Part shown: piece by piece, positions 56,795 through 63,632 of the stretch
Layout: each line of letters opens with the position of its first letter
Position numbering within the stretch: the stretch's first letter is position 1
Origin: Novosphingobium flavum
Lineage (GTDB): Bacteria; Pseudomonadota; Alphaproteobacteria; Sphingomonadales; Sphingomonadaceae
DNA: 64,000 nt
Assembly (NCBI RefSeq): GCF_014230315.1
Contig: NZ_JACLAW010000008.1
Span: 1 to 64,000, forward strand
Direction of reading: 5' to 3'
Translations under genes and position numbers: made by a program
The notes under the pieces: model-generated
Database searches by the model: none
What the model saw: the letters and a program-made list of their open reading frames with translations, nothing else
What the model was told of the DNA's origin: nothing

Positions 56795-57757
56795 TCAGCC
56801 GCGCGCCTTCAGTTCGTTGTAGAGATCGCGCACGAATTGCTGCGCGGAAACGTGGCCGGGCAGCGCTTCGGCGCCAAGGCCTTGGGTAATATCGGCAGCC
56901 TGCACCTCATCGAGGGACTTGCCCTGTCCGATCATGGCGGCGGCATGGTCGCGCGCGGTGATCAGCAGGCGGCGCTGCGCCTCGGCGGCGTCGCGGTGCA
57001 CCACTTGCCCGTGGCTGGTGATGAGCCATGTATTCGGCCCGGCGAGCGCCAGAATCCGGTCGAGCCCGGCCAGCATCCCGTCCAGCGTTCCGCCATCGGC
57101 CCGGTTGATGCTTGGAAACTCCCCGGCCCGCAGCACGTCGCCCACCACGATCACGTCAAGTGCGGGAAAGCGGATCAGGATATCGCTCGCCGTATGGGCG
57201 CGCGGCACGGCGATCAGGCGTAGTTCCTGCCCGCCGAAGGTAAGGCCCATCTCCCGGTCAAAGGTAATCGTCGGCGCTGCTTCGCGCGGAAAAGCCCGCG
57301 CCTGCCGCGCCGTTCGTCCATCCGCCCCGGCGGGCGGGGCTCGCGGAGTGAGCATGAACTCGCGCACCCCGTCCTGCCCGACGATCGTCGCCCCCTTCCC
57401 GGCGAAGAAGCCGTTGCCCGCGATCTCGTCGACATGGGCATGGGTGTTGATGACGTAGCGCACCGGCCCGGGCCCAAGGCGGCTGACAGTCGCGGCAACG
57501 GCCGGTGCCCAGCTTTCGACCCCGGTATCGACCAGCAGAAGGCCCTCGGGGCCGGCCAGGATCGTGATCGAGCCGCCGTGGGCTGGCGTCTCGTCAATCA
57601 CCCACAATCCGGGGACCACCGACCGCGCTTGCAGGTCTGCCGGCGGGGGCGGGACGGGAGGGGCGGCAGGGCGCTGGGCGGACGCAGCCGTGCCGAGGGC
57701 GGCAAGGCCCACAGCAACCAGCATGCTCCCCCGTTGCAGTGTCGTTGCAACCTTCAT
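56795..57757 (-). CDS. metallo-beta-lactamase-fold hydrolase, secreted
   Basis: A 320-residue protein from ATG 57757 (MKVATTLQRGSMLVAVGLAA), with a signal peptide ending SAQ and a Pro-rich linker. The MBL fold is clear (ITILAGPEGLLLVDTGVESW, VINTHAHVDEIAGN, HTASDILIRF, VIVVGDVL, TSHGQVV). The usual H-x-H-x-D-H motif reads HAHVDE: Glu replaces the last His that binds zinc 2 in most family members, although class B1 lactamases also lack it. It is cotranscribed with the solute-binding lipoprotein and divergent from the formate dehydrogenase regulator. Substrate unknown. Confidence 0.83.
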   Translation of the reverse strand: MKVATTLQRGSMLVAVGLAALGTAASAQRPAAPPVPPPPADLQARSVVPGLWVIDETPAHGGSITILAGPEGLLLVDTGVESWAPAVAATVSRLGPGPVRYVINTHAHVDEIAGNGFFAGKGATIVGQDGVREFMLTPRAPPAGADGRTARQARAFPREAAPTITFDREMGLTFGGQELRLIAVPRAHTASDILIRFPALDVIVVGDVLRAGEFPSINRADGGTLDGMLAGLDRILALAGPNTWLITSHGQVVHRDAAEAQRRLLITARDHAAAMIGQGKSLDEVQAADITQGLGAEALPGHVSAQQFVRDLYNELKARG

Positions 57758-57826
57758 GCAGTGGTTTTTCGGGGGTGTTGGGGGTTGGGTCAACTACGCG
57801 TTGGTATAGGGGTGGGTGGCGTTGTT

Positions 57827-57852: not shown

Positions 57853-58752
57853 ATGCAGTTGCAGCACCTTCGCTATTTCACCGCGCTCGCCCGCGAGCGG
57901 CATTTTGCCCGTGCCGCTTCGGCCTGCGGGGTTTCGCAGCCGACTCTTTCGGCAGGCCTTTCCGCGCTGGAGCACGATCTGGGCAAGCGCCTGATCGAGC
58001 GGGACCGGCGCTTCATCGGGCTGACCGAGGAGGGGGCGGCGATCCTGCCGTGGGCGGAGCAGGTGCTGGGCGCGGTGAGGGGGCTGACCCATGCCTCGGC
58101 AGCGCTTTCGGTAGAACTGCAGGGGGAATTCCGCCTTGCCGCGATCCCCGCCGCCCTGCCGCTGGTCGGGGCCTTTGGCGAGGCGCTGCTGGCGCAGAAC
58201 CGGGGGCTGGCGATGTCGGTCCATTCGCAAACCTCGCGCGAGATCGAGCGCGGGCTGGCGGCCAATACCTTCGATGCGGGGATTACCTATCTCGACCATG
58301 AGCCGGCGGGCAATGTCCTGTCGGTGCCTTTGCACGAGGAGCAGTACCTGTTCGTTGCCCGGCGCGGGACGGGGTTCGATGGCCGCACCTGTGTCGACTG
58401 GGCGGAAGTGGCGGAAATGCGGCTCTGCCTGCTGCACCAGGGGATGCAGTTCCGCCGGATTCTGGACCGCCAATTCGCGGATTGCGGCCTTTCGGTCATG
58501 CCGCCGGCCATTGCCGACAGTTATGTCTCGCTGCTCTCGCTGGTCCGTTCGGGAGAGTTCGTCACGATCTTTCCGGCCGCCTATGCCGACCTCGTGAGCG
58601 GGCTGGACTGGTGCCTGTTCCTGCCCTTCGATGCCGAGCCCGCGCCGCGCCGGATCGGGCTGGTCGTGGTCGACCGCGACCCGATGGGGCCGATGGCCCG
58701 CGCCGGCCTGCTGGCGGCGCAGGCCTTGCAACGGGTCGGCAAGGTGGGTTGA
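57853..58752 (+). CDS. fdsR: LysR-type regulator of the formate dehydrogenase operon
   Basis: A 299-residue LysR protein (MQLQHLRYFTALARERHFAR, CGVSQPTLSAGLSALEHDLG) with a standard effector domain. I start it at ATG 57853, the usual LysR N-terminus; ATG 57835 lies inside the operator. Position just before fdsGBA and the shared inverted repeats on both sides of the gene identify it as the operon's regulator (FdsR type). Formate or a cellular redox signal is the likely effector, by analogy. Confidence 0.87.
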   Translation: MQLQHLRYFTALARERHFARAASACGVSQPTLSAGLSALEHDLGKRLIERDRRFIGLTEEGAAILPWAEQVLGAVRGLTHASAALSVELQGEFRLAAIPAALPLVGAFGEALLAQNRGLAMSVHSQTSREIERGLAANTFDAGITYLDHEPAGNVLSVPLHEEQYLFVARRGTGFDGRTCVDWAEVAEMRLCLLHQGMQFRRILDRQFADCGLSVMPPAIADSYVSLLSLVRSGEFVTIFPAAYADLVSGLDWCLFLPFDAEPAPRRIGLVVVDRDPMGPMARAGLLAAQALQRVGKVG

Positions 58753-58769
58753 TAGATATATCCTATCAA
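58749..58769. promoter_or_regulatory. TTGATAG-N7-CTATCAA operator of fdsGBA
   Basis: Perfect 7-bp arms with a 7-base AT-only-plus-C spacer overlap the stop codon of the LysR gene and stand 96 bp before the fdsG start. Its core equals the repeat before the LysR gene. It is the probable activator site of the formate dehydrogenase promoter. Confidence 0.75.
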
Positions 58770-58800
58770 TCGTTGGCCAAATCGATTTGACCGGGCGCCC

Positions 58801-58864
58801 CTGCAAGCCCACTGCAAGCGGACTACAACGGCACTGCAAGCGGACTGCAACCAAGGTGCAAGCC
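58801..58864 (+). repeat. six 11-bp direct repeats abutting the fdsG start codon
   Basis: Units begin at 58801, 58812, 58823, 58834, 58845 and 58856, the last cut to nine bases by the ATG at 58865. The consensus is CTGCAAGCGGA. Units 2 and 4 are identical; unit 3 reads CTACAACGGCA and unit 5 CTGCAACCAAG. The period equals one helical turn. Since the repeats lie in the leader they could bind protein on DNA or RNA, or reflect slippage expansion. AAGGTG inside units 5-6 acts as the ribosome site. Confidence 0.8.
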
Positions 58865-59275
58865 ATGCTCGACGAGATTCTCACCCGCCATGCCAATCGC
58901 GAAGGCGCCTTGCTACCGATCCTGCATGACGTTCAGCACGCGCTGGGTTGCGTCAGCGAGGCGGCCGAGGCTGTGATCGCCAAGGCGCTCAACCTGAGCC
59001 GGGCCGAAGTGCACGGGGTGGTCTCATTCTATCCCGACTTTACCGCCGCGCCCGATCCGCGTCCCTGCGTTCAGCTCTGCCGGGCCGAGGCCTGCCAGTC
59101 GCGCGGGGTGGAGGCGCTGGTTCCAGTGGCCGAGGCGGCGGCGGGGGATCGGGTCCGTCTCGCCACGGTCTATTGCCTGGGGCTGTGCAGCGTTGGTCCC
59201 TCGGCTCGGGTGGGCGACAAGCTCCATGCCCGGCTTGATGCGGACAGGCTGCGCGAACTGGTGGAGCAGGCCTGA
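58865..59275 (+). CDS. fdsG: NAD-dependent formate dehydrogenase, gamma subunit
   Basis: A 136-residue thioredoxin-like [2Fe-2S] protein related to NuoE. The four cluster cysteines appear as C-R-A-E-A-C and C-L-G-L-C, and the helical N-terminal part reads GALLPILHDVQHALGCVSEA, AEVHGVVSFYPDF. It passes electrons between FdsA and FdsB in the soluble cytoplasmic complex. The longer upstream frame runs back into the LysR gene and is rejected. Its stop overlaps the fdsB start (TGATG). Confidence 0.94.
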   Translation: MLDEILTRHANREGALLPILHDVQHALGCVSEAAEAVIAKALNLSRAEVHGVVSFYPDFTAAPDPRPCVQLCRAEACQSRGVEALVPVAEAAAGDRVRLATVYCLGLCSVGPSARVGDKLHARLDADRLRELVEQA

Positions 59276-60786
59276 TGACCCTCGTTCGTATTTCCGACGA
59301 TAGCCTTGCGCTGGCCTGCGGGGCGGACGAACTGGCCGACGCTTTCGCGGCGGCGGGCTGCACGGTCGAACGGGTTTCTTCGTGGGGGATGCATTGGCTG
59401 GAGCCGCTGGTCGAGATCGGCGGGCAGGGCTTCGGGCCTGCCGTTCCCGCCGACGTTTCCGCGATCCTTGCGGGGACTTCGGACAAGGCGATCGGCGCGA
59501 TTGCCGAGCATCCCTTCATCGCCGGGCAGCAGAGGCTGACTTTCGCGCGCGCCGGCAAGACCCGCCCGCTCAGCCTGGCCGACTATGCGGCGACCGGCGG
59601 CTGGCAGGGGCTGGACCGGGCGCGGGCGATGAGCGGCGAGGACGTGGTGGCGGAGGTGATCGTCTCGGGCCTGCGCGGCCGGGGCGGGGCGGGTTTTCCC
59701 GCCGGGATCAAGTGGCGCACCGTGATGGAAGCCAAGGGCCCGCGCAAATACGTCGTCTGCAACGCCGATGAGGGCGACAGCGGGACCTTTGCCGACCGCA
59801 TGGTGATGGAAGGCGATCCCTTCCTGCTGATCGAGGGCATGGCGATTGCCGCCCATGCGGTGGGCGCGCAGCGCGGCTATATCTACGTGCGCAGCGAATA
59901 TCCCCATGCGGTGGCCAAGCTGGAGGCCGCGATCGCGCTTGCTGCGGACCGGATCGCGCCCTTCGTGCTGGAAGTGCGGATGGGGGCAGGGGCTTACGTG
60001 TGCGGCGAGGAAACATCGCTGCTGGAATCGCTGGAAGGCAAGCGCGGCGAGGTTCGCGCCAAGCCGCCGCTGCCCGCGCTCGAAGGGCTGTTCGGCTGCC
60101 TCACCGTGGTCAACAACGTGCTGACGCTGGCCGCCATTCCGCACATCATGGTGCCGGGCGGGGCGAGCCTTTACGAAAGCCTCGGGATCGACCGCAGCAA
60201 GGGCACGATGCCTGTCCAGCTGGCGGGGAATATCCGCCGTGGCGGGCTGTACGAAACGGCCTTCGGGATCACGCTGGGCGACCTTGTCGAGCGGATCGGC
60301 GGGGGCACGGCCTCGGGCCGGCCGGTCAAGGCGGTGCAGGTGGGCGGGCCGCTGGGCGCCTATTTGCCGCCAAGTCAGTTCGGCCTGCCGTTCGACTATG
60401 AGGCCTTTGCCAAGGTTGACGCCCTGATCGGGCATGGCGGCGTGGTGGTGTTCGACGATACGGCGGACATGGCCCGGATGGCCCGCTTCGCCTTTGAATT
60501 CTGCGCGGCGGAAAGCTGCGGCAAGTGCACGCCGTGCCGGATCGGATCGACCCGCGGGGTGGAGCTGGTGACGCGGATAAGCGCGGGGGGCAAGGCGATG
60601 GCCGATGCGGTGGAGGCCCTGCCGCAAATGCACAATGCCCCGAAGTTCGGACGCAGCCGCGAGGACGATATTACCCTGCTGGAAGACCTGTGCGAGACGA
60701 TGAAATTCGGATCGCTCTGTGCGCTCGGCGGTTTCACCCCATATCCGGTGCTTTCGGCGCTGAAGCACTGGCCGGAGGATTTCTGA
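59275..60786 (+). CDS. fdsB: NAD-dependent formate dehydrogenase, beta subunit
   Basis: A 503-residue flavoprotein related to NuoF, with an extra N-terminal thioredoxin-like region (~1-110). It carries the NADH/FMN site (GLRGRGGAGFPAGIKW, NADEGDSGTFADR, GAGAYVCGEETSLLES), an SLBB region and the [4Fe-4S] motif ESCGKCTPCRIGSTRG plus a later Cys (LCALGG). It reduces NAD+ with electrons from formate. It lies two bases before fdsA. Confidence 0.95.
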   Translation: MTLVRISDDSLALACGADELADAFAAAGCTVERVSSWGMHWLEPLVEIGGQGFGPAVPADVSAILAGTSDKAIGAIAEHPFIAGQQRLTFARAGKTRPLSLADYAATGGWQGLDRARAMSGEDVVAEVIVSGLRGRGGAGFPAGIKWRTVMEAKGPRKYVVCNADEGDSGTFADRMVMEGDPFLLIEGMAIAAHAVGAQRGYIYVRSEYPHAVAKLEAAIALAADRIAPFVLEVRMGAGAYVCGEETSLLESLEGKRGEVRAKPPLPALEGLFGCLTVVNNVLTLAAIPHIMVPGGASLYESLGIDRSKGTMPVQLAGNIRRGGLYETAFGITLGDLVERIGGGTASGRPVKAVQVGGPLGAYLPPSQFGLPFDYEAFAKVDALIGHGGVVVFDDTADMARMARFAFEFCAAESCGKCTPCRIGSTRGVELVTRISAGGKAMADAVEALPQMHNAPKFGRSREDDITLLEDLCETMKFGSLCALGGFTPYPVLSALKHWPEDF

Positions 60787-60788
60787 TC

Positions 60789-63632
60789 ATGGCCTATGAA
60801 CCCCAGGCCGATTTCGGGACGCCGCCTTCCCGATCCGAAAGGACGGTGACCCTGACCATCGACGGGCGCGCGGTGACCGTGCCGGAAGGCACCAGCGTGA
60901 TGCGCGCGGCGGCGACCAGCGGCGGCTCGATCCCCAGCCTTTGCGCGACCGACAGCGTCAAGGCCTTCGGCTCGTGCCGCCTGTGTCTTGTCGAGGTTGA
61001 GGGAATGCGCGGCACGCCGGCAAGCTGCACCACCCCGGTGGCCGAGGGCATGGTGGTGAAGACCCAGACGCCCCGCCTTGCCAAGCTGCGCAAGGGGGTG
61101 ATGGAACTCTACATCTCCGACCACCCGCTCGACTGCCTGACCTGCAGCGCCAACAACGACTGCGAATTGCAGGACGCGGCGGCCGAAGTGGGCCTGCGCG
61201 ACGTGCGCTATGGCTATGAGGGCGCGGGGCACCTTGGCACGCCGACTGACAGTTCCAATCCCTATTTCGACTTCGACCCGGCCAAGTGCATCGTCTGTTC
61301 GCGCTGCGTGCGGGCCTGCGAGGAAGTGCAGGGGACGTTCGCGCTGACCATCGACGGCAAGGGATTTGCCTCCAAGGTCAGCGCGGGCCAAGCGGGCGAC
61401 GATTTCCTGTCCAGCGACTGCGTTTCCTGCGGGGCCTGTGTTCAGGCCTGCCCGACCGCAACGCTGAACGAGAAGGCCGTGGCCGAGATCGGCAAGCCCG
61501 AGCGCGCCGTGGTGACGACCTGCGCCTATTGCGGGGTGGGCTGCACGTTCCGCGCCGAGATGCGCGGCGAGCAGCTGGTACGCATGGTGCCGTGGAAGGA
61601 CGGCAAGGCCAATCACGGCCATTCCTGCGTGAAGGGCCGCTTTGCCTGGGGCTATGCCAACCACCGCGACCGGGTGCTGAGCCCGATGATCCGCGAGGGC
61701 ATCGAGCAGCCGTGGCGCGAGGTTTCGTGGGATGAGGCGCTGCAATTTACCGCGCGGCGGATTGCCGAGATCAAGGCGGCGCATGGCGCCCGCGCGCTGG
61801 GCGGGATCACGTCCAGCCGCTGCACCAACGAGGAGGCCTACCTCGTCCAGAAGCTGGTTCGCGCCGGGTTCGGGTGCAACAACGTCGATACCTGTGCGCG
61901 GGTCTGTCATTCGCCCACCGGTTATGGCCTGAAGGCCACGTTCGGGACCAGCGCGGGGACGCAGGATTTCGACAGCGTGATGGATGCCGACGTGATCCTG
62001 GTGATCGGGGCCAATCCGACCGATGCCCACCCGGTGTTCGCCAGCCAGATGAAACGGCGACTGCGGGAGGGCGCGAAGCTGATCGTGATCGATCCGCGGC
62101 GGATCGACCTCGTGCGCAGCCCGCATGTCGAGGCGGCTTTTCACTTGCCGCTACGGCCCGGCACCAACGTGGCCGTGCTGACCGCCATGGCCCACGTGAT
62201 CGTGACCGAGGGGCTGGCGGACGAGCAGTTCATCCGCGAGCGCTGCGATACCGAGGAATATGCCGATTGGGCGCAGTTCGTTTCCGACGCGAAGCATAGC
62301 CCGGAAGTGCTGGAGCCGGTGACCGGCGTGAGCGCGGCGGACCTGCGCGCGGCGGCGCGGCTCTATGCCACGGGCGGGAATGGGGCCATTTACTACGGGC
62401 TTGGCGTGACCGAGCATTCGCAAGGTTCATCGACGGTGATGGCCATTGCGAACCTTGCCATGGCGACTGGCAACATCGGCCGGCGCGGGGTGGGGGTGAA
62501 CCCGCTGCGGGGTCAGAACAACGTGCAGGGTTCGTGCGACATGGGCTCGTTCCCGCACGAGTTGGCGGGATATCGCCACATTTCGGACGCAGCGACGCGG
62601 GCGCTGTTCGAGGCGGACTGGGGCGTGGCGCTCGACCCCGAGCCGGGTCTGCGCATTCCCAATATGCTGGACGCGGCGGTGGATGGCTCTTTCCGGGCGC
62701 TTTACGTGCAGGGCGAGGACATTCTCCAGTCAGACCCCAATACGCATCACGTGGCGGCCGGGCTGGCGGCGATGGACCTTGTCATCGTCCACGACCTGTT
62801 CCTCAACGAGACGGCGAACTACGCGCATGTCTTCCTGCCGGGGAGCACTTTCCTTGAGAAGAACGGCACGTTCACCAATGCCGAGCGCCGCATCCAGTTG
62901 GTGCGCAAGGTGATGGAGCCGGCTAATGGGCTGGAGGACTGGGAAGTGACCCAGGCGCTGGCCAATGCCATGGGGCTGGGCTGGGACTATGCTCACCCGG
63001 CCGAGATCATGGCAGAGATCGCGCGGCTGACGCCCAGCTTTGCCGGCGTGAGCCATGAGGCGCTGGACCGCGAGGGTTCGTTGCAGTGGCCGGTCAACGC
63101 GGCTCATCCCGATGGCAGCCCGATCATGCATGTGGATGGCTTTGCCAACGGGAAGGGCAAGTTCGTGATCACGGACTATGTGCCGACCGACGAGAAGACC
63201 GGGCCACGCTTCCCGCTGCTGCTGACCACGGGGCGCATTCTCAGCCAGTACAACGTGGGCGCGCAGACGCGGCGCACGGCCAATACCGTGTGGCATGAGG
63301 AGGACGTGCTGGAGATCCACCCGCATGACGCGGAAAACCGGGGGATCGCCAGCGGGCAGTGGGTGCGGCTCGCCAGCCGGACCGGGGAAACCACGCTGCG
63401 GGCCGAGGTGACGGACCGAGTGGCGCCGGGCGTGGTCTATACCACCTTCCACCATCCCGCGACGCAGGCCAACGTGGTCACCACCGACTATTCGGACTGG
63501 GCGACCAATTGCCCGGAATACAAGGTGACGGCGGTGCAGGTCGCCCCCAGCAACGGGCCGAGCGACTGGCAGCAGGACTACGAGGCGCTGTCGCTGCGTT
63601 CGCGGCGGATTGCGGCCGAGCCGGCGGAGTAA
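60789..63632 (+). CDS. fdsA: NAD-dependent formate dehydrogenase, alpha (catalytic) subunit
   Basis: A 947-residue molybdenum enzyme oxidising formate to carbon dioxide. It has an N-terminal [2Fe-2S] domain (SCRLCLVEVEG), a His-ligated [4Fe-4S] site (HPLDCLTCSANNDC), two ferredoxin clusters (CIVCSRCVRACEEVQG, CVSCGACVQACPT) and the bis-MGD domain beginning with CAYCGVGC. The Mo ligand is Cys373 next to His374 (ARVCHSPTGYG), so this is the cysteine, not selenocysteine, form. The ATG at 60789 is three bases after the fdsB stop. The usual fdsC and fdsD genes do not follow. Confidence 0.96.
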   Translation: MAYEPQADFGTPPSRSERTVTLTIDGRAVTVPEGTSVMRAAATSGGSIPSLCATDSVKAFGSCRLCLVEVEGMRGTPASCTTPVAEGMVVKTQTPRLAKLRKGVMELYISDHPLDCLTCSANNDCELQDAAAEVGLRDVRYGYEGAGHLGTPTDSSNPYFDFDPAKCIVCSRCVRACEEVQGTFALTIDGKGFASKVSAGQAGDDFLSSDCVSCGACVQACPTATLNEKAVAEIGKPERAVVTTCAYCGVGCTFRAEMRGEQLVRMVPWKDGKANHGHSCVKGRFAWGYANHRDRVLSPMIREGIEQPWREVSWDEALQFTARRIAEIKAAHGARALGGITSSRCTNEEAYLVQKLVRAGFGCNNVDTCARVCHSPTGYGLKATFGTSAGTQDFDSVMDADVILVIGANPTDAHPVFASQMKRRLREGAKLIVIDPRRIDLVRSPHVEAAFHLPLRPGTNVAVLTAMAHVIVTEGLADEQFIRERCDTEEYADWAQFVSDAKHSPEVLEPVTGVSAADLRAAARLYATGGNGAIYYGLGVTEHSQGSSTVMAIANLAMATGNIGRRGVGVNPLRGQNNVQGSCDMGSFPHELAGYRHISDAATRALFEADWGVALDPEPGLRIPNMLDAAVDGSFRALYVQGEDILQSDPNTHHVAAGLAAMDLVIVHDLFLNETANYAHVFLPGSTFLEKNGTFTNAERRIQLVRKVMEPANGLEDWEVTQALANAMGLGWDYAHPAEIMAEIARLTPSFAGVSHEALDREGSLQWPVNAAHPDGSPIMHVDGFANGKGKFVITDYVPTDEKTGPRFPLLLTTGRILSQYNVGAQTRRTANTVWHEEDVLEIHPHDAENRGIASGQWVRLASRTGETTLRAEVTDRVAPGVVYTTFHHPATQANVVTTDYSDWATNCPEYKVTAVQVAPSNGPSDWQQDYEALSLRSRRIAAEPAE

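Follow-up and report, generated by a model that had tools for sequence, protein, structure and literature searches.

The window, the whole 64-kb stretch of DNA that was analysed, carries the genes of a formate dehydrogenase (fds) behind a LysR-family regulator gene, with an array of short direct repeats directly before fdsG. The following features were recognised.

57734..57760, minus strand: second array, TGCAT-N6-TGCAA-N6-TGCAA (strict pair at 57734-57749, third unit read in the sequence).
57853..58752, plus strand: LysR-family regulator, named fdsR in the initial annotation (Pfam HTH_1 and LysR_substrate).
58749..58792, plus strand: putative fds promoter region, a TTGATAG-N7-CTATCAA dyad and AATCGATTTGACC, common to relatives.
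58801..58864, plus strand: six-unit 11-bp direct-repeat array (read in the sequence; Tandem Repeats Finder, TRF; length ranking).
58810..58851, plus strand: 22-bp period inside this array (TRF, 1.9 copies, 95% match).
58865..59275, plus strand: fdsG (best NCBIfam match formate dehydrogenase subunit gamma, below the cut-off).
59275..60786, plus strand: fdsB, a NuoF-like subunit (best NCBIfam match below the cut-off).
60789..63632, plus strand: fdsA, formate dehydrogenase alpha subunit (TIGR01591, above the cut-off).

In Pfam, fdsG matches a thioredoxin-like 2Fe-2S ferredoxin. Six units phased at 11 bp run up to its start codon, as the initial annotation had described and as the sequence reading and TRF confirm. 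TGCAA cores begin at 58802, 58813, 58835, 58846 and 58857 and a TACAA core at 58824, at intervals of exactly 11 bp; 58864 is the last base of the array, and the ATG follows immediately (58865-58867). The consensus first proposed, CTGCAAGCGGA, stands for the core common to the units; in full it occurs in two of the six only (58812 and 58834), and the spacers vary. The top three TRF rows for the window all belong to this array (scores 77, 64 and 58; next best 57). Counted as consecutive hexamers with at most one mismatch to TTGCAA at period 11, the strict run in the window comprises 3 hexamers, while none of 100 first-order Markov resamples gave more than 2; it reaches only 3 at the fds array because the TACAA unit interrupts it. 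The 22-bp period in part of the array points to an internal duplication, which probably lengthened an originally shorter array. With six units it is the longest among 46 genomic arrays examined. The array at 57734-57760, only 1 kb away, crosses the likely start codon of a gene with a metallo-beta-lactamase fold (Pfam).

The dyad and AATCGATTTGACC before fdsG are probably a regulator site and promoter. The dyad resembles those of LysR-type sites. Loci of fdsG in relatives have an upstream dyad and a AATCGATTTGACC-like box as well, and an ATTTGAC box was present in 15 of 104 fdsG loci examined. The leader from TTTGAC to ATG measures 73 nt here versus 29-30 nt in the five of these 15 loci with a clean ATG, so that it is about 43 nt longer with the array than in these relatives. 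One further locus (L058) has 45 nt; values of -5 to 21 nt in the remaining 9 of the 15 are mostly unreliable, the script having mostly chosen an upstream alternative codon. Neither a sigma-70 promoter nor a terminator was found in 58600-58900. The leader RNA folds less well than shuffled sequences (z +2.06), and RNA structure in the fds leader was rejected.

No three-unit array occurred within 220 bp upstream of fdsG in 80 loci of other genomes, the best 80 of 183 from a collection that may omit records very near this genome. A single loose phased pair was present in two of the 80 (L275 and L321). At 29 FdsG loci of relatives, no strict pair was found anywhere in the fetched stretch. The initial annotation had named absence of the array from close relatives with unchanged expression as evidence against its proposal; as regards presence, this is what the 80 and 29 loci showed, and fds-specific regulation was rejected.

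When the fds leader was searched against its own genome, arrays of the same sort turned up next to leuS and within a sulfatase gene (names by reading). In the 4.10-Mb genome, TGCAA-N6-TGCAA has 73 matches (39 forward, 34 reverse, two palindromic sites being counted twice), and its reversed pattern has none. With the gap one base wider, 4 pairs were present, and 9 of the reversed pattern at that gap; chance may account for as many as about 4 of the 73. Distances between TGCAA words on the same strand in 400 kb of contig C11 peaked only at 11, 22 and 33 (12, 8 and 5 cases), all remaining distances from 5 to 79 occurring at most twice each. Opposite-strand TTGCA kept the 11-bp register in these 400 kb, and runs of three cores numbered 6 at period 11 and none at periods 9, 10, 12 and 13. 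No spacing peak was found for a control word or in 200 kb of the array-poor genome G302, and none was visible in a 200-kb stretch of G446, a moderately rich genome. Forty-six arrays were counted after exclusion of two of 48 clusters (L067 and L102, palindromic or AT-rich TTGCAA sites), an average density of about one per 90 kb. The fds array is a member of this genome-wide family of phased arrays.

Conservation of the unit was analysed with 50 strict pairs as anchors, L067 and L102 still included. Neighbouring units that had not been selected carried the core at +22 (z 10.4), +33 (z 6.7) and -11 (z 5.8). C or T predominates at the base preceding the core, and the spacer columns are biased only weakly (commonest spacers CGCCGC and CGGCAC); the units are therefore described as (C/T)TGCAA direct repeats with a nearly free spacer. 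Within an array they mostly share one orientation. Allowing one mismatch per neighbouring core, 8 arrays have two units, 22 have three, 15 have four and one, that of fds, has six; thus 37 of the 46 consist of 3-4 units and span 33-44 bp. This sharp limit of length suggests a bound complex of fixed size.

Arrays occur in both orientations, within genes and between them. According to gene calls made with a codon-usage script and not a gene finder, 31 of the 46 lie inside coding sequences (31 of the 44 fetched loci have the array in a gene) and 15 outside genes, where 8.7% of random positions fall. At fds, too, the frame of fdsG stays open across the array (ORF 58631-59275); with this and the 31 coding arrays, the earlier argument that an 11-base period cannot be coding does not hold as a rule. 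Host genes, named by reading of translations, comprise ligA, recF, mutY, murE, argJ, metG, tsaE, bioA and others. Sixteen arrays lie within 100 bp of starts (expected 8.2) and 16 within 100 bp of stops (expected 7.8), a near-equal enrichment, so the arrays are not promoter-specific. Within 150 bp of starts, 12 are upstream (expected 5.6) and 9 downstream (expected 6.2), a mild upstream excess. Counts per contig are compatible with even dispersal (P 0.46) in this draft of 26 contigs, where chromosome and plasmid contigs are indistinguishable, and a contig hot spot was rejected.

A three-unit array near position 1488 (minus strand) of locus L087 (G000:C20:219585-222585) lies 13 bp upstream of a response-regulator gene that reads as OmpR-family, a class binding such direct repeats. 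No similar locus was seen among the compared array loci of G324 (34), G446 (24) and G304 (6). By eye, no DNA-binding gene recurred among those that follow intergenic arrays in four genomes, and no replication initiator was recognised among the proteins encoded there. On this inspection by eye, an autoregulated binder adjoining its array was rejected.

Among 149 genomes of the genus, strict pairs were most numerous in the genome of this window (G000, 73), followed by G324 (51), G300 (49), G402 (44), G364 (41), G446 (30), G304 (21), G443 (20) and G395 (18); all others had at most 14. These nine pair-rich genomes had 1-14 pairs at the wider gap. A strict three-unit array was present in 14 of 195 Novosphingobium genomes, with no control match in any; across the phylum, 5 of 398 genomes had such arrays (15 in G000, 1-3 in the others). 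As far as sampled, the dispersed form is limited to a lineage and patchy. In a four-gene protein tree of eight genomes (G446 without metG, G324 without murE), G000 and G324 split from the rest with a support of 100 and G300 joined G304 with 100; the other nodes had 59-81, among them the array-poor G296 beside the array-rich G446 (59). Similar arrays, of TGCAACGGGGTTGCAACGGCATTGCAA type or parts of it, lie in G324 at C76:11522, C102:1690, C192:2469 and C204:1002. No description of such arrays was found in open-licence PubMed Central articles.

Orthologues were sought for the 31 coding arrays and 19 were aligned; some of the other 12 had matches at about 52% identity or less. In all 19 comparisons with the nearest orthologue, the array and about ten codons on each side were free of gaps in the relative, so these arrays originated by substitution. 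Other comparisons yielded single-codon differences in metG and, against G446 and G302, in L080; in L108 against G302, one end is truncated. No array-sized indel was seen in any of the 19, which speaks against a mobile or inserted repeat of the MITE or REP type, since such a block would lengthen the host sequence. The intergenic fds leader, by contrast, is longer than that of relatives.

Five of the 19 coding arrays (bioA, tsaE, mutY, recF and ligA, by reading) have every strict core base preserved in G324, and the tsaE and ligA cores are intact in G446 too. In these five, 55 of 55 core positions, 25 of 36 spacer positions and 720 of 956 flanking positions agree, and the spacers drift like the flanks. 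The core value holds by construction because the cases are defined by intact cores; the weight of the set lies only in the number of cases and the drifting spacers. The other 14 arrays retain 94 of 170 core positions (0.55), 69 of 120 spacer positions (0.57) and 1999 of 2856 flanking positions (0.70), which block replacement or variable, fast-evolving stretches of protein could also explain. Counted by the genome compared, cores are fully intact against G324 in 5 of 13 cases, against G446 in 2 of 14 and against the array-poor G302 in none of 5. An identity of 0.75 would leave ten core bases unchanged at about 6% of loci, a rough estimate that ignores codon correlations; 5 of 13 is therefore well above chance. 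Core identities of 80-99% occurred in one of 27 comparisons with G324 and G446 (L108, 13 of 15). Such a split into intact and clearly different cases, with little between, would be predicted by selection on the site. A third-codon test (23 of 26 versus 1160 of 2034 identical, p 0.001), which was ascertained on pairs both with strict arrays, is superseded by the comparison of cores, spacers and flanks.

Several known systems share single traits with the arrays. PhoB and ArcA boxes have a period of 11 bp and are located at promoters. The arrays resemble these OmpR-type boxes as head-to-tail direct repeats of one helical turn with several units per site, and differ from them in lying mostly in genes and at stops as often as at starts. 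GTTGCA, the operator of the ribbon-helix-helix protein PutA, is the complement of the commonest array core, TGCAAC; we know of no chromosome-wide arrays for PutA. Dozens of dispersed, sequence-specific sites, mainly in coding sequence, are known for SlmA, the nucleoid occlusion protein of E. coli, with 50 sites (PMC3116907). The SlmA site is a single 12-bp palindrome, GTGAGTACTCAC, excluded from Ter, unlike the tandem 11-bp direct-repeat arrays of the present 26-contig draft, where no contig bias was detected. SegB, a ribbon-helix-helix protein of chromosome segregation in Sulfolobales, likewise has scattered and mostly intragenic sites; 46 motif sites are counted, 83.7% of them intragenic, and the authors take the intragenic sites to argue for chromosome organisation rather than regulation (PMC12284271). 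The SegB site is a 13-bp palindrome, archaeal, and richest near segAB, unlike the arrays. With 46 arrays, 31 of them coding, the present set is of this dispersed kind, dozens of sites mostly in genes.

There is about an even chance, in our judgement, that the dispersed arrays are sites maintained by selection for a cooperative DNA-binding protein that acts chromosome-wide and is not directed at fds. A multi-site for a DNA-binding protein had been among the first proposals for the fds array and fits the conserved core, the nearly free spacer and the period of exactly 11 bp; its specificity for fds was unsupported. Cores of (C/T)TGCAA every 11 bp would present one face of the helix, and one protein, OmpR/PhoB-like, ribbon-helix-helix or similar, could bind them head-to-tail and cooperatively. 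The putative protein would serve the chromosome as a whole, in organisation, segregation or control of division. Several observations run against this reading: 14 of the 19 coding arrays are not the same in the genome compared, no DNA-binding gene recurs by eye after intergenic arrays, the upstream side of starts is somewhat enriched, 200 kb of G446 shows no spacing peak, and an essential function of the chromosome would hardly be expected to have sites so patchily distributed over the genus. Somewhat more tentative is a narrower form, a Novosphingobium-specific system for chromosome organisation or coupling to division, in which a putative cooperative protein reads the 33-44-bp arrays and selection acts on the DNA and not on the protein encoded. 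Sites would then enter housekeeping genes by codon-compatible substitution and afterwards be kept by selection. If true, this would be a bacterial genome-wide set of sites built from tandem 11-bp units, most often 3-4, that shape codon choice within ligA, recF and mutY and are gained or lost among the lineages of one genus. It would also offer a handle on chromosome organisation and partition in alphaproteobacteria without known SlmA or Noc systems. The array could also influence fds expression locally, but such an influence would be incidental; a repeat that stands out upstream of a gene is not necessarily there to regulate it.

An unlikely alternative, on account of where the arrays lie, is that they are operators of a transcriptional regulon spanning the genome, controlled for instance by an OmpR/PhoB-type response regulator and with fds among its targets: regulon sites should be concentrated upstream of genes, and starts and stops are enriched alike with two thirds of the arrays (31 of 46) in coding sequence. 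The array-bearing genes are unrelated, as far as reading tells, and the L087 arrangement, with an array 13 bp before a response-regulator gene, does not recur in the 34, 24 and 6 loci of G324, G446 and G304. In favour of a regulon count that arrangement itself, the uniform orientation of most units, the direct-repeat period of about 11 bp and the 12 arrays, against 5.6 expected, in the 150 bp upstream of starts. Direct repeats spaced by about one helical turn are frequent targets of regulators of the OmpR family (PMC9275681); the same paper describes Rhodobacter CenR, an essential alphaproteobacterial regulator, with the direct-repeat box TGA-N8-TGA, a different motif. The CenR box was rejected for the arrays, which differ from it in core and spacing.

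A functionless dispersed repeat family generated by mutation (slippage, template switching or conversion) appears less likely again. It would suit the unshared coding arrays, which differ from the orthologue alike in core and spacer, the enrichment at gene edges, where constraint is weak, and the 22-bp period and longer leader of the fds array. Copying would, however, keep the spacer too, while the unselected neighbouring units keep mainly the core; 45 of the 46 arrays stop at four units, and retained arrays have all core bases, L108 being the one intermediate case in 27 comparisons. Improbable, in turn, is a signal for recombination, uptake or repair spread through biased inheritance in the manner of uptake sequences, which the arrays resemble in their two orientations, their origin by substitution within coding DNA and their restriction to a lineage. 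In DNA uptake sequences, a single short word is present in at least hundreds of copies, and we know of none in tandem phased arrays; about 46 arrays per genome are far sparser, and the 73 strict pairs and 46 arrays in 4.1 Mb do not reach such numbers. Highly improbable, finally, is a device specific to the fds leader, the RNA target or slippage-prone tuner of formate dehydrogenase expression initially suggested: the array is the longest of the 46, lies right against the ATG and makes for a leader of 73 nt after the TTTGAC box, where the five loci with a clean ATG have 29-30 nt, but this reading fails because about 46 similar arrays lie beside or inside unrelated genes in both orientations, 45 of them elsewhere than at fds, and it is further contradicted by the lack of the array at the 80 and 29 other fdsG loci (very near strains possibly missing) and by a leader RNA less structured than shuffles.

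Arrays with the same core and period occur in phages. TGCAAC arrays at 11 bp were found in at least 120 IMG/VR stretches, compared with 15 and 29 for two scrambled cores. Spacing controls gave at least 120 at period 12 and 52 at period 10 and were uninformative, so the scrambled cores served as control. In 80 fetched pieces (750 kb), spacing 11 gave 13 pairs outside the arrays found, no excess over the 14 pairs at spacings 9, 12 and 21. One contig gave two array loci. The neighbours of TGCAAC arrays are mixed, integrases being the most frequent (8 of 107 scanned, 159 listed), and two scanned neighbours carry the domain PF14657 Arm-DNA-bind_4. TGCAAC arrays lie near or inside integrase genes in L381, L385, L412, L433, L440 and L446; arrays at integrase genes could be arm-type sites. 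According to ARAGORN, the arrays of L395 (9649-9675) and L451 (354-380) immediately follow the 3' end of a tRNA gene, and no tRNA adjoins those of L384 and L425, which had looked similar by eye. Both tRNAs belong to phage tRNA clusters, and a role as attachment sites was not borne out. The phage arrays look like ordinary single cis-sites, with at most a possible link to the chromosomal arrays. Among neighbours of the scrambled-core arrays, replication initiation proteins account for 7 of 78 scanned (92 listed); in L672-L715 these 11-bp arrays adjoin replication-initiation and primosomal genes, like ordinary origin iterons.
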